This document shows positions 4,384 through 11,082 of a stretch of 64,000 nt of DNA, piece by piece. Source of the DNA: Candidatus Kryptoniota bacterium. GTDB lineage: Bacteria > Bacteroidota > Ignavibacteria > Kryptoniales > JAKASW01. Position 1 is the first letter of the stretch. Each line of letters starts with the position of its first letter. The notes below the pieces were generated by a model. That model searched no databases. It was not told where the DNA came from and was given only the letters and a program-made list of their open reading frames with translations. A program made the position numbers and the translations under genes. The DNA is taken from contig JAHECO010000016.1 of assembly GCA_024641705.1 (NCBI GenBank), positions 1 to 64,000 of the forward strand, in the 5' to 3' direction.

Positions 4384-7300
4384 TTACAACTCTTCCTGTT
4401 TCAACTCACGCCGGAATGTCTCTTCGAATATCGTATAGAGCGTGGGTATGAATATGAGCGTAAGGAATGTGGATACAGTCAATCCGCCGATGACGGCAAT
4501 TGCCAGGGGTGCCTCCGACCTGTCACCGCCCATCCCGAGTGCCATGGGAATGAGTCCGACGACTGTGGCGAAGGAAGTCATCAGGATCGGGCGGAGCCTG
4601 GTTCGGCCTCCGAGCAAAACTGCCGCGTGCAGTTCCATGCCGGTCTTCCTCAGACGATTGATATAGTCGATGAGCAAGATCCCGTTTGATACGACGATGC
4701 CCACCATGACTATGACTCCTTCGAATGAGGTAACGGAGAGCGTCGTGTTTGTGAGGAATAGAGCCCATACCACGCCGGCCATGCCGAGCGGTATCGTAAA
4801 CATGATGATGAAAGGATCGACAAGGGATTGGAACTGCGATGCCATGACCATATAAACGAGTATGATGGCAAGTACAAGCGCCAGGAGGAGCGCCGCGAAC
4901 GTGCTCTTCTGCTGCTCGATATTGCCGCTCTGAACTATCTGGAATCCGGACGGCACTGAGAGGTGATTCAGCCGGCTTTGTATGTCTGAGGTGACACTGC
5001 CCAGGTCCCTGCCGGTGACGTTGGCAGTGACGTCGATAATGCGCTGCTGGTACTTGCGGTCAATCTCGACAGGCGTGTTCGTCATCTCTATGTCAGCGAT
5101 GTTGCCGAGCTTCACAAGCTGGCCCGAGCTGCTCGGGACTGTAAGCTGGCGGATGTCGTCGATTCTGTTGCGGTCGCTTTCCTGTAAGCGAACGAGAATG
5201 TTGAACTGGTTGCCGGTCTTCGGATCGGTGAACTGTGATGCCACGGTACCGTCGATCGCGGTCGCCACAGTATTTGCGATATCCGCGACGTTCACGCCGA
5301 GAGCGCCTGCTTTCTCCCTGTCTACCACGACTTTGAGTTGCGGCATATTGGGATCCATGCTTATCTGTGCGTCCGTTGCGCCTGGGGTGGTGCGGACGAT
5401 GTCATAAACCTTGTTAGCCAGATCCTCAGCCGTCGGGATGTCGTATCCCATTATCTGCACGTCGATGGGTGCTGAGGAACCGAAGTTGAGGAGGAAATGG
5501 AGGAACCCACCCGGGCTGAGAAATATCTTTGCCCCTGGAAGGGAAAGGAGCTTCGGCCTCAGTTCGTCGACGATCTGGTCCTGTGACCGGTTTCTGTCGG
5601 TGGGCGGCACGAGCTGCACCTGAATATTTGCGGCATACGTGCCGGGGTTTCGGCTGAATAGATTGCCGCTCTTCTGGGAGGGGACGCCGAGGTCGGCAAT
5701 GATGGCTTTTGTTTCAGGTACGTTTGCCTTTATTATCCCTTCCACGTTCTCGACATACTTCTCCGTCTCCTCGATGCGCGTCCCGACTGCCAACTTGACG
5801 CTCACTGAAAATTGGCTTTCGTCGCTGTCCGGGAAAAATTCCGTCCCCACAAACTTAAAGAGGGCGAAAGACGCCACCGCAAAGAATGCTACGGAAACGA
5901 TCACCTGCCACTTGTGTTTGAAGGTGTAGGCGATCGTCTTCTGATAGTACTCGTCCACTGTGTCAAAAAATTTCTTCGAGCTCAACTTCACACGATCCCA
6001 GTAGTTTGTCGTGTTGGGGTCGATTTCCTTTTCGGGCGTGAGGATGCGGTAACAGAGAAGCGGAGTGACACTCCTGGAGACAAAGAAGGAGGCGAACAGG
6101 GCCACCGTGATCGTCAGGACCAACGGCAGGAATAACAGCTTTGCAATTCCCGTGACGAAGAGAACCGGGAGGAAGACTATCACAGTTGTCAGAGTCGAGA
6201 TGAATATGGGGCCGGCGACTTCGAGAGCAGCATCTAGAGTTGCCTGCATCCTCGAGACGTTGGTCCTCTCCATCAGGCTGTAGTGCCTGGAAATGTTCTC
6301 CAGCTCAACGATCGAATCGTCGACAAGACGTCCTACGCCGAGCGCCAACCCTCCCAGAGTCATGATGTTAAGCGAAGTGGCGCTGAACCTGAAGTAAACG
6401 AAAGCGACGAGAATCGAAAGGGGAATCGCCACGAATATCACGATCGCACTCTTCACATCCCTGAGGAAGAGCAGGATTACGATCACGGCCAGGAGTCCGC
6501 CGAGCGCCGCCTCCTGCTCCAGACCGCTGATGGAGTCTCTGATATAAGTGCTCTGGTCAAAAGCGATGGATGATCTCACCGACTTCGGGACTCCGTCGAG
6601 CCTGGGGAGCTCCTTCATGATCTCGTTCACGACCTGCACTGTATTTGCATCGGGCGATTTTTGCACCCTGAGCACAACGCCGTTCTTGCCATTCACCCGT
6701 ATGAGCTCGGACTGCTCCTGGTACGAATCTTCGACCGTCCCGATGTCCTTTATGCGGATCGGCACCCCCTTTACGACTTTGACGATGATATTGTCCATCG
6801 GCTGGACAAGATTGAATTGCGTATCGGTTGTCAGGGAGTAGTCGAACACACCCGTTTTGAGGTCGCCGGACGGAATGATAAGATTAGAGTTCGCGACTGC
6901 TTGGGTAACCGCGGTTATCGGGATGCCTAGCGCGTCAAGCCTGTGCCTGTCCACGACGACATGGATCTCTCTTATCCTGCCGCCACTCACCCCGGCCTGC
7001 GCGACGCCCGGAAGATGCTCGAGCTGTGGTTCTATAACGTTGTATGCGAGGTCGTATAGCTTCCGCTGTCCCATATCGCTGCTGAGTACCACGGTGCAGA
7101 CGGGGAGGTTCGATAAGTCGAACTGAAGGGCGATCGGCTGGGACACCCCGGGCGGTAGAAGATTATACGCTCTGTTGATTTTTTGTATTACATCGACCAG
7201 GCCGACGTCGGTGTTCGCGCCCCAGTTGAAAAAAATGAAGATCTGGGAGACACCTTCTCGCGTGCGTGATTGCACGTAATTGACATCGTTCGTGCTGCTG

Positions 7301-7512
7301 ACGGCTCTCTCCAGTGGAACGGTGATCGTCTGCTCCATATCCGTCGGAGCGGCGCCGTTGTAAAACGTGATAACTGAGACGACCGGTATCTGGATGTTCG
7401 GAAGCATATCGATCGGCAGCTGGAGGAACGATACAATTCCGAGTACGAATATGGCTAACGACCCCATCAGTGTAGAGATAGGGTATTTGAGTGCAAGGCG
7501 GGTTATCCACAT
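4384..7512 (-). CDS. RND-family efflux pump, inner-membrane permease (HAE1/AcrB type)
   Basis: This inner-membrane proton-driven transporter exports hydrophobic or amphiphilic compounds as a trimer with a periplasmic adaptor. The 1042 residues match the usual length. They start with the first membrane helix, followed by the porter-domain FYNGAAPTDMEQTI block. The TM4 proton-relay aspartates are present in GRLVDDSIVELEN (Asp398-Asp399). The TM10 lysine of E. coli AcrB is not conserved; the segment reads GIVVSNGILLIDYIN, as in many AcrB-like pumps outside the enterobacterial group. The start lies four bases after the adaptor stop. It is the last gene of a sigma/anti-sigma/Spy/adaptor/pump unit. 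The substrate is unknown and no TolC-type channel is encoded in the window. Confidence 0.93.
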   Translation of the reverse strand: MWITRLALKYPISTLMGSLAIFVLGIVSFLQLPIDMLPNIQIPVVSVITFYNGAAPTDMEQTITVPLERAVSSTNDVNYVQSRTREGVSQIFIFFNWGANTDVGLVDVIQKINRAYNLLPPGVSQPIALQFDLSNLPVCTVVLSSDMGQRKLYDLAYNVIEPQLEHLPGVAQAGVSGGRIREIHVVVDRHRLDALGIPITAVTQAVANSNLIIPSGDLKTGVFDYSLTTDTQFNLVQPMDNIIVKVVKGVPIRIKDIGTVEDSYQEQSELIRVNGKNGVVLRVQKSPDANTVQVVNEIMKELPRLDGVPKSVRSSIAFDQSTYIRDSISGLEQEAALGGLLAVIVILLFLRDVKSAIVIFVAIPLSILVAFVYFRFSATSLNIMTLGGLALGVGRLVDDSIVELENISRHYSLMERTNVSRMQATLDAALEVAGPIFISTLTTVIVFLPVLFVTGIAKLLFLPLVLTITVALFASFFVSRSVTPLLCYRILTPEKEIDPNTTNYWDRVKLSSKKFFDTVDEYYQKTIAYTFKHKWQVIVSVAFFAVASFALFKFVGTEFFPDSDESQFSVSVKLAVGTRIEETEKYVENVEGIIKANVPETKAIIADLGVPSQKSGNLFSRNPGTYAANIQVQLVPPTDRNRSQDQIVDELRPKLLSLPGAKIFLSPGGFLHFLLNFGSSAPIDVQIMGYDIPTAEDLANKVYDIVRTTPGATDAQISMDPNMPQLKVVVDREKAGALGVNVADIANTVATAIDGTVASQFTDPKTGNQFNILVRLQESDRNRIDDIRQLTVPSSSGQLVKLGNIADIEMTNTPVEIDRKYQQRIIDVTANVTGRDLGSVTSDIQSRLNHLSVPSGFQIVQSGNIEQQKSTFAALLLALVLAIILVYMVMASQFQSLVDPFIIMFTIPLGMAGVVWALFLTNTTLSVTSFEGVIVMVGIVVSNGILLIDYINRLRKTGMELHAAVLLGGRTRLRPILMTSFATVVGLIPMALGMGGDRSEAPLAIAVIGGLTVSTFLTLIFIPTLYTIFEETFRRELKQEEL

Positions 7513-7516
7513 ATGG

Positions 7517-8632
7517 TTATCTCGTCACCCTTACTTTCATTCCGTCGTTCACGAGGTCCTGCCCCAGAAAGACTATCTCATCATTGCGGGATATCCCCGA
7601 AAGGATTTCATCCCTGTTGTCCTGGGCAATACCGACTTTCACGTAGGACTTGTGGACCGTGTTGTCCTTCGTGACCGTGTAGACGTAATAACCCGAGTCG
7701 TCTCTCATGATGACCTGGGAGGGGAGTATCACGGCATTATCGGCTTTGGCAATGAGGAGATTCACCGTTGCGTACATGCCAGGCTTCAGGAGCCTCTGAG
7801 GATTGTCGACGTCGACCTCCACAGGCATCGTCCTGGTGGCGAGGTCAAGCTGCTGACTGACTCTCGTTATTCTGCCGTGAAAGACCTGATCGGGGTAAGC
7901 ATCTACGACGATCTCGGCGTCTTTGATTTTTCCGATAAGGGGGACGTCTCTTTCGAGAAGATCCACCATGATCTTCACCTTGCTTATGTCCGCGAGGTAG
8001 AAGAGGGTAGAGGTCTGGGAGTTTGTCGATGCAGTTACGTATGTGCCGGGATCGAAAAACCGTCTCGTTACAAATCCTGAAAACGGCGCGGTTATCCTGC
8101 AGTACCCCAGCTGCGTAACTGCGTTCCTGTAATTTGCAGAGGCGGCTTCCGCCTGGGCACCGGCGACCTTGTAGGCAGTCTCCGCGTTATCGAGGTCCTG
8201 TTTGGCTATGAGGTTCTGTTCCAGAAGACTCTTGTCGCGCTCGTAAATCAACTTTGAGTTGGCAAGGGTAGCCTGTGCCTGCAGGAAAGCTGCCCTCGCC
8301 TGGCGTGCATTCTCAGCATAGACGGTCGTGTCGATGAGAGCCAGGATCTGCCCCTCCCGCACATAGTCGCCGATGTCGACAAACTCCTTCTCGATGTTTC
8401 CATTCACCCTCGGAAAAATGCTCGACTCCTGGATGGCAGCTATGTCGCCGGAGAATGTAAGCGTTCTTGAGATTGTGCCGACCTGTGCCTGCGAAACCTG
8501 TACGGAGGGAACCGGTCGCGTAACTTTGGCGGCTTCTTCGGCATTCGACCTTACCCTCATGTAAATCAACAGAGCCAGCAATACTATCACGCCGGCGGAA
8601 AAAATATAAACCCGCTTTTGATTCTTACTCAT
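7517..8632 (-). CDS. RND efflux periplasmic adaptor subunit (membrane fusion protein)
   Basis: The adaptor links the inner-membrane pump to an outer-membrane channel. The 371-residue protein has an uncleaved-looking N-terminal helix (about residues 8-26) and no lipobox. The usual order follows: a lipoyl half-motif (VNGNIEKEFVDIGDYVREGQ), an alpha hairpin of about 80 residues, the second lipoyl half around CRITAPFSGFVTRRFFDPG, a beta barrel, and a membrane-proximal domain ending in VRVTR. It is encoded immediately upstream of the pump (4-base gap) and eight bases after the Spy-like gene, so all are probably translated from one mRNA. Confidence 0.93.
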   Translation of the reverse strand: MSKNQKRVYIFSAGVIVLLALLIYMRVRSNAEEAAKVTRPVPSVQVSQAQVGTISRTLTFSGDIAAIQESSIFPRVNGNIEKEFVDIGDYVREGQILALIDTTVYAENARQARAAFLQAQATLANSKLIYERDKSLLEQNLIAKQDLDNAETAYKVAGAQAEAASANYRNAVTQLGYCRITAPFSGFVTRRFFDPGTYVTASTNSQTSTLFYLADISKVKIMVDLLERDVPLIGKIKDAEIVVDAYPDQVFHGRITRVSQQLDLATRTMPVEVDVDNPQRLLKPGMYATVNLLIAKADNAVILPSQVIMRDDSGYYVYTVTKDNTVHKSYVKVGIAQDNRDEILSGISRNDEIVFLGQDLVNDGMKVRVTR

Positions 8633-8640
8633 TCAATTTC

Positions 8641-9000
8641 CTACTGGTTGTCGTTTTCACGTTGCATCCTCCTGTCCAGCGAATCGAGTTTCACCTGCTG
8701 TCCGGGAGTGAGGATTGACCTGATCATCTTCTGCGTCGAGTCGACCTGGCTCTGCATGGATGTCTTGAAGTTTCTCCGGATGGCCTGGAATTTCGGATGA
8801 ACGAATGTGATTATCGAATCCAATTGTTTCTGCTGGGTCTGTGACAGACCAAGCTGCTGCGTCATAAAACTCACGAACCTGGCTTTACCGAAGTGGGCGT
8901 CGGTCGGCTGGAAATAGAAGTGATCTATCGCGAAGCCGGCTACACCGCCGATGACCAGTGAAACGATCACGGTCATCAAGAGAGTTCTTTTCGTTACCAC
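8641..9000 (-). CDS. Spy/CpxP-like periplasmic protein
   Basis: A 119-residue protein with one N-terminal hydrophobic segment (residues 7-25) followed by an all-helical region. It carries two LTXXQ-type motifs, LSQTQQ and LTPGQQ, typical of the Spy/CpxP/heavy-metal-sensor family. Such proteins act as periplasmic chaperones or dampen envelope-stress signalling. The GTG start directly abuts the anti-sigma stop codon and has AAGGAG eight bases upstream. Its place between an anti-sigma factor and an efflux pump suggests a sensing or feedback role, which is inference. The short C-terminus is highly charged. Confidence 0.8.
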   Translation of the reverse strand: MVTKRTLLMTVIVSLVIGGVAGFAIDHFYFQPTDAHFGKARFVSFMTQQLGLSQTQQKQLDSIITFVHPKFQAIRRNFKTSMQSQVDSTQKMIRSILTPGQQVKLDSLDRRMQRENDNQ

Positions 9001-9447
9001 TTATTTGCTCCTTACCACAAGTTCGAGTACCTGGTCGTTGGAGAGGTTGGATTGCTCGAGAGAACTTTTTTCGATGTTCGTCAGCCTGCCCGCCATTTCC
9101 ACCGGGTTTACTTTCGGCTTGTGGAACAGTTGAAGAGATATCAGGAGAATTACAATGAGGGTGGCAAGACTGATGATTATATCCTCGAGCGCCAGGCGGA
9201 ATTCACCTGCAGGGGACTCCGACTTCTGATTTCTGAACCGCGTGATGATGCCGTAATTGAAACGCTCATCCAGCGGGACCATGAAAGAGTCGTTGATCAC
9301 GCCTCTGAGTGACAGCATCGACTCCAATTCGCTTCTACATGCGACGCACGTCGCGATGTGATGTTCGAATTCAGCTCGTGCATCGGTGGAGAGCTCGTCG
9401 TGCGCGTAGGAATCGACATAGACGGTGTAGCGGCAGCTATTTCCCAT
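9001..9447 (-). CDS. Zinc-binding anti-sigma factor (ZAS / zf-HC2 type)
   Basis: This membrane-anchored anti-sigma factor is predicted to hold the adjacent ECF sigma factor inactive. The N-terminal 40 residues contain the HX3CX2C signature (HIATCVAC). A single membrane helix lies at about residues 89-107 (DIIISLATLIVILLISLQLF), followed by a periplasmic tail of about 40 residues. The gene overlaps the sigma gene by 11 bp, the usual translationally coupled arrangement for such pairs. The tail is a plausible sensor, with the Spy-like product as a possible partner; that link is inference. Confidence 0.88.
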   Translation of the reverse strand: MGNSCRYTVYVDSYAHDELSTDARAEFEHHIATCVACRSELESMLSLRGVINDSFMVPLDERFNYGIITRFRNQKSESPAGEFRLALEDIIISLATLIVILLISLQLFHKPKVNPVEMAGRLTNIEKSSLEQSNLSNDQVLELVVRSK

Positions 9448-10081
9448 TTGACAGCCTCTCGGTTAATTTCTCACGAAGGACTTGTCTTGCCCGGAACACC
9501 CTCGTCTTGGCTGTCCCGATGCTTATCTTTAAAGACCTGGCTATTTCGTCGTAGCTCAGTTCATCTATCTCGCGCAGCGTAACGGCGACGCGAAGGATGG
9601 GGGGGAGCTTTCGCATTTCTTCTCTCACGATCCGGATCGTTTCTCCGGAGTCGAAAATGTTGACCGGGTCGCTGGAGGTGCCTGTCTGTACCTGTTCCTG
9701 TCCACCGTACTCATCGTTTCGACCGAACGCCTCTGTGAAATTGAATATGCGTTTTATCTGTTTCCGTCTTATTTCGTCCCGGCATAGATTGACCGTGATT
9801 CTTATGAGATAAGTGTAGAATGATGAATCTCTCCTGTAGCGTCTGATGGAATTGAAGGCTCTGATGAAAGCCTCGTGCGAGACCTCCTCGACGTAGTCTC
9901 TTCCCATGATCGAGTAGACTGTCGCCGCGACTTTTCCCTTATATAGGCCGATGATCTCTGAAAATGCGGATTCATCGCCCTGAAGAGCGCGGTCGATGAT
10001 TTCCTTTTCCCTGGTTCTTTTGTCATACACCTTCGATCCATTAGACGAGTCAGGGGTGCTGCGGTTCAGTTTATCCACCAT
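9437..10081 (-). CDS. ECF-type RNA polymerase sigma factor (RpoE-like)
   Basis: A 214-residue sigma-70 family protein lacking regions 1 and 3. Region 2 includes YVEEVSHEAFIRAFNSIRRYR and the region 2.4 stretch FYTYLIRITVNLCRDEIRR. Region 4.2 is the helix-turn-helix LSYDEIARSLKISIGTAKTR. The start is placed at the ATG at 10081; a longer in-frame extension reads back through the divergent ABC gene and is not protein-like. The gene leads the unit with its anti-sigma factor, a Spy-like protein and RND efflux genes, so this sigma factor probably controls its own operon as an envelope-stress or efflux response. An untranslated linker of about 30 residues rich in charge separates regions 2 and 4. 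Confidence 0.92.
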   Translation of the reverse strand: MVDKLNRSTPDSSNGSKVYDKRTREKEIIDRALQGDESAFSEIIGLYKGKVAATVYSIMGRDYVEEVSHEAFIRAFNSIRRYRRDSSFYTYLIRITVNLCRDEIRRKQIKRIFNFTEAFGRNDEYGGQEQVQTGTSSDPVNIFDSGETIRIVREEMRKLPPILRVAVTLREIDELSYDEIARSLKISIGTAKTRVFRARQVLREKLTERLSNGK

Positions 10082-10091
10082 AATATTTGTG

Positions 10092-10122
10092 TTGATAATT
10101 TTGCTGAACGCGAATAAATTTC
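10092..10122 (+). promoter_or_regulatory. Promoter of the ABC exporter locus
   Basis: TTG (10092-10094), 20 bases, TAAATTTC (10115-10122). The -7 box ends eight bases before the ATG, so the mRNA leader would be only a few bases. It faces away from the sigma-factor gene. Confidence 0.5.
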
Positions 10123-10130
10123 CAAACGTT

Positions 10131-11082
10131 ATGGGTCTAGAGATTAGAGGAGTTAGAAAGCTGTTCGGCTCAATAACAGCGGTCGACGGCATTACGTTCC
10201 AGATAGATGTGCCCAGTGTTGTCGGTTTCCTCGGTCCCAACGGGGCGGGGAAGACGACCACAATGAGAATCATCACCGGATTCCTCGGCGCGAGTGAAGG
10301 CGAGGTAAAGATCGACGGTCAGACGGTCGGTCAGGACAACGCATCTCTCCGGTCGAAGATCGGATACCTGCCGGAAAGCAACCCGCTGTACACAGAGCTG
10401 GAGGTACATGAGTTTCTGAAGTTCACCGCGGCGCTCTCCGGCCTCGACGCACAGCGAACCGGCGAGCGCCTGGATTTTGTCGTCGAGCGGTGCGGACTCA
10501 GAGAAGTCCTTTACGAACCGATCTACAGGCTCTCGAAGGGATACAAACAGCGGGTGGGACTGGCTCAGGCCCATTATCCACGATCCGGCAATACTGATAC
10601 TGGACGAGCCTACTTCCGGCCTCGACCCGAACCAGGTTATCGGGATCAGGGAACTCATATCAGAACTTGCCCGTGAGAAATTTGTTGTCCTCTCGACTCA
10701 CATCCTCTCAGAAGTTCAGGCCCTGTGCGACAGAGTGTTGATCATCAACAGGGGCAAGCTGGTTCTCGACGCAACCGCCGATGAACTCAGGCACAGCGGA
10801 ACAGGGGCTCTTTCCATCATAGTGAAAACGAACACCGAGGCCGGCAGAGTCGCAGGGATTTTCGAAGAAGCGCTCGGGGCGCAGCGATGTACCGCCAGCA
10901 GAAACGGCGACACGATTACCTTGGAGCTGTCGGTCAAAGATGCCCAGGAAGTCCGCGAGAAGGTGTTCGATGTCTGCGTGGCTAATAATTTCAAGATGCT
11001 CGGGCTGGCGAATTCCGGGTCGGACCTTGAGAACATATTCAGAGAATTAACCATTGGTACAGATGAAACAGGACAGCACTAA
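10131..11082 (+). pseudogene. ABC transporter ATPase (GldA/CcmA-like), frameshifted
   Basis: The ATPase of an ABC-2 exporter. Walker A (GPNGAGKTTTMR), the Q-loop region (GYLPESNPLYTELEV) and the LSKGYKQRVGLAQA signature are in one frame. Walker B (ILILDEPTSGLDPNQ), the H-loop (LSTHILSEV) and the C-terminal domain continue in the next frame. The break is at about 10572-10575: GCC-CATT-ATC-CAC reads normally as A-L-I-H if one base is removed. The start is at 10131, since the in-frame upstream extension is the antisense of the sigma gene. All other parts are intact and the downstream genes overlap normally. A one-base assembly error is therefore as likely as real inactivation. Confidence 0.85.

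Follow-up and report, generated by a model that had tools for sequence, protein, structure and literature searches.

A window of 64,000 nucleotides from a Candidatus Kryptoniota bacterium (contig JAHECO010000016.1, positions 1 to 64,000) carries five minus-strand genes at 4384-10081, in the order SIG, ASIG, SPY, MFP and RND. They encode an extracytoplasmic function (ECF) sigma factor, a membrane anti-sigma factor, a small Spy-type protein, and the periplasmic adaptor and permease of a resistance-nodulation-division (RND) pump (Table 1). The reading tentatively favoured here, at a little short of even confidence, is that the first three genes form a three-component transmembrane switch, set before an efflux pump, in which SPY would sense periplasmic stress, act on the C-terminal tail of ASIG and so free SIG. 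The initial annotation had described five tightly spaced sigma, anti-sigma, Spy, adaptor and permease genes at this site, and both coordinates and families were confirmed: SIG and ASIG overlap by 11 nt, and the subsequent gaps are 0, 8 and 4 nt. Curated family cut-offs were passed by SIG, ASIG, MFP and RND, with SPY alone falling below.

The steps that we infer, from topology through SPY-tail binding and signal to autoregulation in this genus and a borrowed channel, would run as follows. The cytoplasmic zinc-motif domain of ASIG would hold SIG at the membrane, which ASIG would cross once, and its short periplasmic tail would be docked to, or guarded by, membrane-anchored SPY. A misfolded polypeptide or an amphiphilic or toxic compound (in this genus perhaps a metal) would engage SPY, the SPY-tail contact would be altered, and ASIG would release SIG or be cut. 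RNA polymerase would then transcribe the operon, giving more SPY and more pump, and the pump would use an outer-membrane channel borrowed from another pump operon. The action of SPY on the ASIG tail to free SIG is proposed by analogy with CnrYXH, in which, according to the available part of PMC7689651, the binding of metal by membrane-anchored CnrX is signalled to CnrY, leading to release of CnrH and expression of the RND genes. A general envelope signal is suggested because no metal ligands are conserved class-wide and the pumps vary.

The ASIG tail and its SPY neighbour

The genus sample comprised 12 further genomes drawn by a relatives search, or 13 with the window. The five-gene order, whose conservation in relatives the initial annotation had singled out as a check, was kept in 12 of the 12 other genomes, and ASIG was present in all of these at 49-59% identity. 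ASIG matches zf-HC2 over its cut-off with an H-x3-C-x2-C motif and adjoins an ECF sigma gene, as does a class I (zinc-motif) anti-sigma factor; it also has a hydrophobic segment, with the conserved tail lying beyond. M1, E18, H30, C34, C37, L135, D138, V140 and E142 were invariant across 15 sequences drawn from two families, and four of them (L135, D138, V140 and E142) fall in the last 14 residues of the protein. Among the 13 genus sequences, mean column identity was 0.85 in the tail, 0.79 in the membrane segment, 0.74 in the stem and 0.57 in residues 1-84, making the tail the best conserved of the five ASIG segments (0.85 against 0.57-0.79).

The three zinc-motif residues were invariant in 15 of 15 sequences from the two families and in 22 of 22 module sequences. 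This invariance would suit a cytoplasmic signal, in which the ASIG motif would sense redox stress or zinc like the soluble zinc-binding anti-sigma (ZAS) factors, with SPY and the pump as mere outputs. Such a signal is very improbable, however, given the hydrophobic segment and the conserved tail beyond it; moreover, membrane-bound class I anti-sigma factors often carry the motif, where it may be structural (PMC7406223, in the portion available).

The tail was compared across the class. In families f4 and f6 it reads roughly [IL]SKDDxxxAxxSK, at the very C-terminus. The count drew on the first 61 class matches outside the genus and sister-family units, of which 60 were taken (G286, at a contig edge, was left out); four rows were dropped (L116 as a duplicate; L107, L114 and L123 at contig ends), giving 56 countable loci. 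SPY adjoined ASIG in 25 of 26 tail-bearing loci as against 2 of 30 tail-less loci (Fisher 2e-12, a figure that overstates the association, tail and SPY being traits of one clade and not 25 independent events). The 26th tail locus, L079, is the exception and carries a SPY-like frame; all 26 belong to f4 or f6. Tail and SPY were thus retained together while ASIG identity dropped to about 15-25%. The suggestion in the initial annotation that a periplasmic chaperone could report to the anti-sigma factor gains substance from these data, in that the best conserved ASIG segment of the genus is the one that goes with SPY.

SPY itself fell below the Pfam cut-offs (LTXXQ 22.4 against 24.3 bits; Metal_resist 18.4 against 29.2 bits), and a phmmer search of the PDB with its sequence alone returned only unrelated chains. 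A profile of 29 SPY homologues (A7) matched Spy in the PDB (3oeo, E 4e-4), the only match below 0.001, followed by NccX (0.054), 3zg1 (0.32), which is labelled 'CnrR' and which we take to be CnrX, and CpxP (0.49). Seven of the eight PDB sequences with E <= 0.5 were of Spy, NccX, CnrX or CpxP kinds, the eighth being apolipoprotein A-I. Among the 29 homologues at E <= 0.01, Metal_resist matched 15 and LTXXQ matched 11. SPY probably belongs, judging by these profile matches, to the Spy/NccX/CpxP superfamily. Its predicted structure was all-helical (helices 4-29, 39-50, 54-96 and 99-118) with a mean predicted local distance difference test (pLDDT) score of 63; Foldseek with this low-scoring model gave eight matches, none with E <= 0.001, and a second look (VIA) listed no Spy or CnrX. 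The residues of SPY that are invariant class-wide (G18, G22, L52, Q56, D61, L97 and Q101) make up a GxxxG motif in the membrane helix, formed by the two glycines, and two L-x-x-x-Q-like motifs.

The anchored state of SPY bears on a further possibility, in which SPY would be only an effector chaperone of the regulon and the ASIG tail a recognition peptide for a periplasmic protease, with SIG freed by stepwise proteolysis in the manner of RseA. A conserved peptide at the very C-terminus suits a PDZ-type reader. Genes of the Peptidase_M50 (site-2-protease) family are present in the genome, but M50 matches were found in all 14 control genomes too and carry little weight. In Phocaeicola vulgatus, cirY and spy increase together with two downstream genes when the anti-sigma factor is removed, and the Spy protein is treated as an output (PMC13114119, as far as its available text goes). 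This route to SIG is nevertheless judged unlikely: the tail tracks SPY, not anti-sigma factors generally, and the membrane anchor of SPY with its invariant GxxxG would be needless for a free chaperone.

No His, Cys or Met residue of SPY other than the start Met was conserved class-wide. Within the genus, H36, H68 and M92 were invariant in 13 of 13 SPY proteins, and in other families they were found in only 1, 2 and 1 of 24 sequences, respectively. These residues would fit a CnrYXH-like metal switch in this genus, in which SPY would bind a transition metal through His and Met and the pump would expel it; NccX and 3zg1 are among the A7 matches, and CnrX requires a conserved Met ligand (PMC7689651, in the part available). 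The isolate names of some relatives (DBS, DX and FK_Sedi) may also hint at an origin from mining sites. Set against this, the three residues are only part of eight genus-specific invariant positions, the others being L7, K39, P69, Q72 and F78, so that the gain of His and Met does not stand alone. H68 and M92 also lie far apart on one helix of the weak SPY model, the class at large lacks conserved candidate ligands, and the RND permease is under the CusA/CzcA cut-off (TIGR00914, 499.8 against 701.45 bits). A metal switch is considered unlikely and is kept as the first rival to the three-component switch sensing periplasmic stress.

The module outside the genus

Outside the genus, SIG-ASIG-SPY is what stays constant, and the pump is not. 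In f2, the sister family, SIG-ASIG-SPY-MFP follows murA in five of seven genomes (the other two being 78% and 71% complete), and no permease stands beside the adaptor in the two loci of two that were read further. In f4 and f6 the module follows an mnmA-like gene wherever upstream sequence was read. What comes after it varies: an adaptor and an RND permease directly (L076, L077, L084 and L095, with L083 by its RND gene); an adaptor, a MacB-like permease, a second adaptor and an RND permease (L070, L071, L072, L074, L075, L078, L079, L080, L085, L088, L089 and L092); or an adaptor and a MacB-like permease with no RND gene in view (L069, L086, L087 and L094, the first and last of these being cut). 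Pfam was used to check the MacB_PCD/FtsX assignment of one permease (L070) and the LysM/SLT (L068) and major facilitator superfamily (MFS; L081) neighbours. The RND proteins fall into three clades, and that of the window includes L070, L076, L077, L083 and L095. The self-contained circuit with its pump that the initial annotation proposed accordingly holds as a fixed arrangement in the genus (12 of 12) and not outside it, where the unlinking of sigma pair and pump that it had named as contrary was found in f2 (no permease in 2 of 2 loci) and in L068, L073 and L081 (no pump).

In L081/L116 an MFS transporter gene follows SIG-ASIG-SPY in place of an RND or MacB-like cassette.

The sigma factors were placed in a tree of 68 rows, from which L072, L106 and L124 (length), L116 (duplicate) and L091, L108 and L115 (no sigma found) were omitted. 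Module sigma factors from f1, f2, f4 and f6 made up 41 rows on one side of a branch with support of 97; this set, adjusted after a tree had been seen, includes L107 and L079 and excludes L111 (a SPY neighbour, no tail). A first approximately unbiased (AU) test had rejected a single sigma clade (p 0.0016) because the named set omitted L107, in which the tail is present and the contig ends before SPY. When the wider ASIG profile was run on 395 genomes sampled from the phylum, its top listed matches came from this class; the best match outside it, among the matches listed, scored 51.6 bits over positions 4-120 of 152. G098 (f4) matched at 75 bits.

A second kind of triad was also seen in the class, with an anti-sigma factor of ~200 aa followed by a secreted helical protein of 159-171 aa (L082, L096, L103, L112, L117, L119 and L121). 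The helical proteins were weakly Metal_resist-like in three of five scanned, all below cut-off, and the accompanying sigma factors form a separate clade (support 99). The f4 genomes have up to nine ASIG-profile matches each, which suggests that such anti-sigma factors may have expanded in f4.

Outside the genus, SIG is preceded at 26 of 32 module loci by an element of the form G[AG]AAC-N16-CGT[CT], the usual layout for ECF promoters, when N15-17 is allowed (25 with N16; shuffles expect 0.27). The pattern had been drawn by eye from these loci before the count, in which L081 and L116 both figure although they form a single unit. The same element was found at 3 of 30 loci without a detected SPY, two of them (L079 and L107) being module members. 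Because an ECF-type element precedes SIG, probable autoregulation is argued for in the families outside the genus.

In this genus the operon may be autoregulated. The ECF promoter that the initial annotation proposed to look for before 10081, clear in other families, was not found as a conserved element: the spacer has a relaxed form, AAC-N17-CGTT, in 4 of 13 genomes (the window and three others), the strict pattern is absent from the spacer, and scoring of the genus loci with matrices from other families gave scattered matches with no common position. The spacer is itself conserved, 26 of its first 42 positions being invariant in the 13 genomes, and much of this conservation can be put down to a putative sigma70-like promoter driving the divergent ABC operon. 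The sigma70-like site gains weight only because the spacer is conserved, since a consensus scan of the whole region gave 4 sites against 3.8 expected. Near-matches to the spacer elsewhere in the genome comprised one with 1 mismatch (C82) and another with 2 mismatches, the reversed control giving 1 match. Genome-wide, GRAACTTT-N13-CGTY occurred 3 times against 6 for the reversed control, giving no regulon signal.

Several observations weigh against the three-component switch, in addition to the common descent of tail and SPY. No conserved ECF promoter was found in the genus: the strict pattern occurred in 2 of 13 genomes, both times inside the ABC gene and at no shared place. When f4 and f6 sequences were added to the ASIG alignment, only M1, E18 and the zinc motif stayed invariant and the tail columns no longer did so. 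The pattern used to score tails was set down with the tails already in view, and the ASIG search profile included the tail. A read-through model of ASIG and SPY had a mean pLDDT of 45, was set aside as useless and lends a SPY-tail contact no support. No pump adjoins SPY in L068, L073 and L081, and the main output may thus be something other than efflux. Finally, the Spy protein of the CirYZ-Spy system is called a chaperone of the regulon, not a sensor (PMC13114119, in the available part).

A broader proposal would take the module as an exchangeable cassette of the whole class. A membrane-anchored Spy paralogue would read the ~14-residue tail of a class I anti-sigma factor and would sense unfolded or amphiphilic ligands, not metal; different exporters would be placed behind it (adaptor-RND of three clades, MacB-like with RND, or none), and in this genus the sensor would have been re-tooled to metal through H36, H68 and M92. 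Taken as a whole, this proposal is conceivable and on balance doubtful.

The pump, its channel and the neighbouring genes

The RND permease scored below the curated cut-offs of the NCBIfam subfamilies that it matched. Permease and adaptor are encoded together, as for a tripartite RND pump. The initial annotation had noted the lack of a nearby TolC homologue, and a profile built from the seven TolC proteins of the genome likewise matched nothing in window frames of at least 150 aa. With the same frame limit there was no TolC in the 12 genus loci, two sister-family loci and 60 class-level regions, many of which end at contig ends; the sole other matches were two adaptors, at 16.7 and 14.6 bits. 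That the channel would have to be shared or missing was deduced in that annotation and not observed.

The genome has eight genes of the OEP family (19 matches, the weakest of which, in four frames, are adaptors). Seven are full-length TolC genes, all of which lie next to an adaptor of their own and a partner of ABC, RND or MFS-like type. The eighth, C32, is a doubtful frame of 268 aa that scores 30 bits and lacks a neighbouring pump. An orphan TolC, for which the initial annotation had recommended a genome search, was rejected, none of the candidates being convincing: the full-length genes are all pump-linked, and the C32 frame is short and weak. Most likely, the pump borrows its channel from another pump operon.

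Within the genus, a second, tandem RND permease was complete in the same operon in 6 of 12 loci (L027, L028, L029, L031, L033 and L034), was cut by a contig end in one (L036, partial) and was not seen in five. Tandem RND permeases resemble two-permease pumps such as MdtBC. In a FastTree tree of RND proteins all second copies fall in a single group with its origin inside the genus; the window branch lies outside that group and the window therefore represents the single-permease state.

The divergent ABC gene precedes SIG in 12 of 12 genus loci. Its ATPase gene is split in the window and forms a single frame of 333-379 aa in 10 of the 12 loci, the other two ending at a contig edge; the split could be an assembly error or a genuine break. 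The ABC mRNA may be leaderless, as only ~8 nt separate the end of the -10-like box in its promoter from the start codon of the ABC gene.

Table 1. Features of the five-gene operon and its upstream flank (positions in the window)
Feature	Position	Strand	Evidence
SIG, ECF sigma factor, 214 aa	9437-10081	-	Pfam Sigma70_r2 47.0 bits and Sigma70_r4_2 55.3 bits, both above cut-off
ASIG, membrane anti-sigma factor with zinc motif, 148 aa	9001-9447	-	zf-HC2 30.6 bits (cut-off 22.2)
ASIG H-x3-C-x2-C zinc motif, residues 30-37	9337-9360	-	Translation; H30, C34 and C37 are invariant columns
ASIG C-terminal periplasmic tail, residues 133-148, candidate docking/recognition peptide	9004-9051	-	Column conservation
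SPY, putative small membrane-anchored Spy/CnrX-superfamily protein, 119 aa, GTG start	8641-9000	-	Profile A7
MFP, RND periplasmic adaptor, 371 aa	7517-8632	-	RND_mfp 260 bits (cut-off 94.9)
RND permease, 1042 aa	4384-7512	-	ACR_tran 830 bits (cut-off 28)
Spacer between SIG and the ABC operon, 49 bp, strongly conserved within the genus	10082-10130	.	13-genome comparison
Sigma70-like promoter of the divergent ABC operon, TTGATA-N17-TAAATT	10092-10120	+	Consensus scan
Divergent ABC-transporter ATPase gene, two frames here	10131-11082	+	Pfam ABC_tran 80.9 bits, first piece

Relation to known sigma/anti-sigma systems

Triads of sigma factor, anti-sigma factor and Spy-type protein are already known from CnrYXH, CirYZ-Spy and, by annotation, RpoE8. 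The CnrYXH and NccYXH systems of Cupriavidus metallidurans likewise bring together an ECF sigma factor, a membrane anti-sigma factor, a membrane-anchored protein of the Spy/CnrX superfamily and an RND pump, and in CnrYXH the periplasmic protein is the sensor (PMC7689651, in the part available), a role that is proposed here for SPY. ASIG, with its zinc motif, differs in belonging to class I; CnrY is placed in class II in the available portion of PMC7406223. There are further differences: metal ligands are not found class-wide (H36, H68 and M92 being candidates within the genus), the pump is below the CusA/CzcA (heavy-metal efflux, HME) cut-off, and there is no channel gene and a pump that varies between families. 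The unit is judged from its sequence not to be a member of CnrYXH, because the tests of anti-sigma class and pump subfamily fail.

In the CirY/CirZ-Spy system of Phocaeicola vulgatus (Bacteroidales), a sigma/anti-sigma pair is also followed by a co-transcribed Spy-type gene, and the sigma factor acts on its own operon (PMC13114119, available part). The gene next to the module in L068 encodes a LysM/SLT protein, which parallels the LysM gene of CirYZ-Spy. Unlike the operon described here, that system has no efflux genes in the available text of PMC13114119, where 'efflux' and 'RND' have 0 occurrences. The RpoE8 operon of Azospirillum brasilense similarly comprises a sigma factor, a hypothetical protein and a 'periplasmic heavy metal sensor' by annotation; it differs in that neither a pump nor an anti-sigma test is described in the part of PMC12826043 available. 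The RpoE-RseA-RseB operon differs in being without a pump. RseB, moreover, is not known to belong to the Spy superfamily. The shared plan is that of an ECF sigma factor, a membrane anti-sigma factor and a periplasmic partner, RseB guarding RseA (PMC12153292, in its available part).

No account of the five-gene unit, the ASIG tail or the exchangeable pumps was found in the open-access literature searched, which is weak evidence of absence. In the available part of PMC7406223, only 6% of Bacteroidetes ECF sigma factors are associated with class I anti-sigma factors, which gives the finding of such a conserved switch in this phylum some value of its own. The short ASIG peptide is named here as the likely signal-input site, and is directly testable. 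If the proposed switch is correct, it would link the design of CnrYXH (metal, with an RND pump) to that of CirYZ-Spy (envelope stress, no pump), and would suggest that a Spy-type protein on an anti-sigma factor serves as a general receptor to which various exporters can be coupled.

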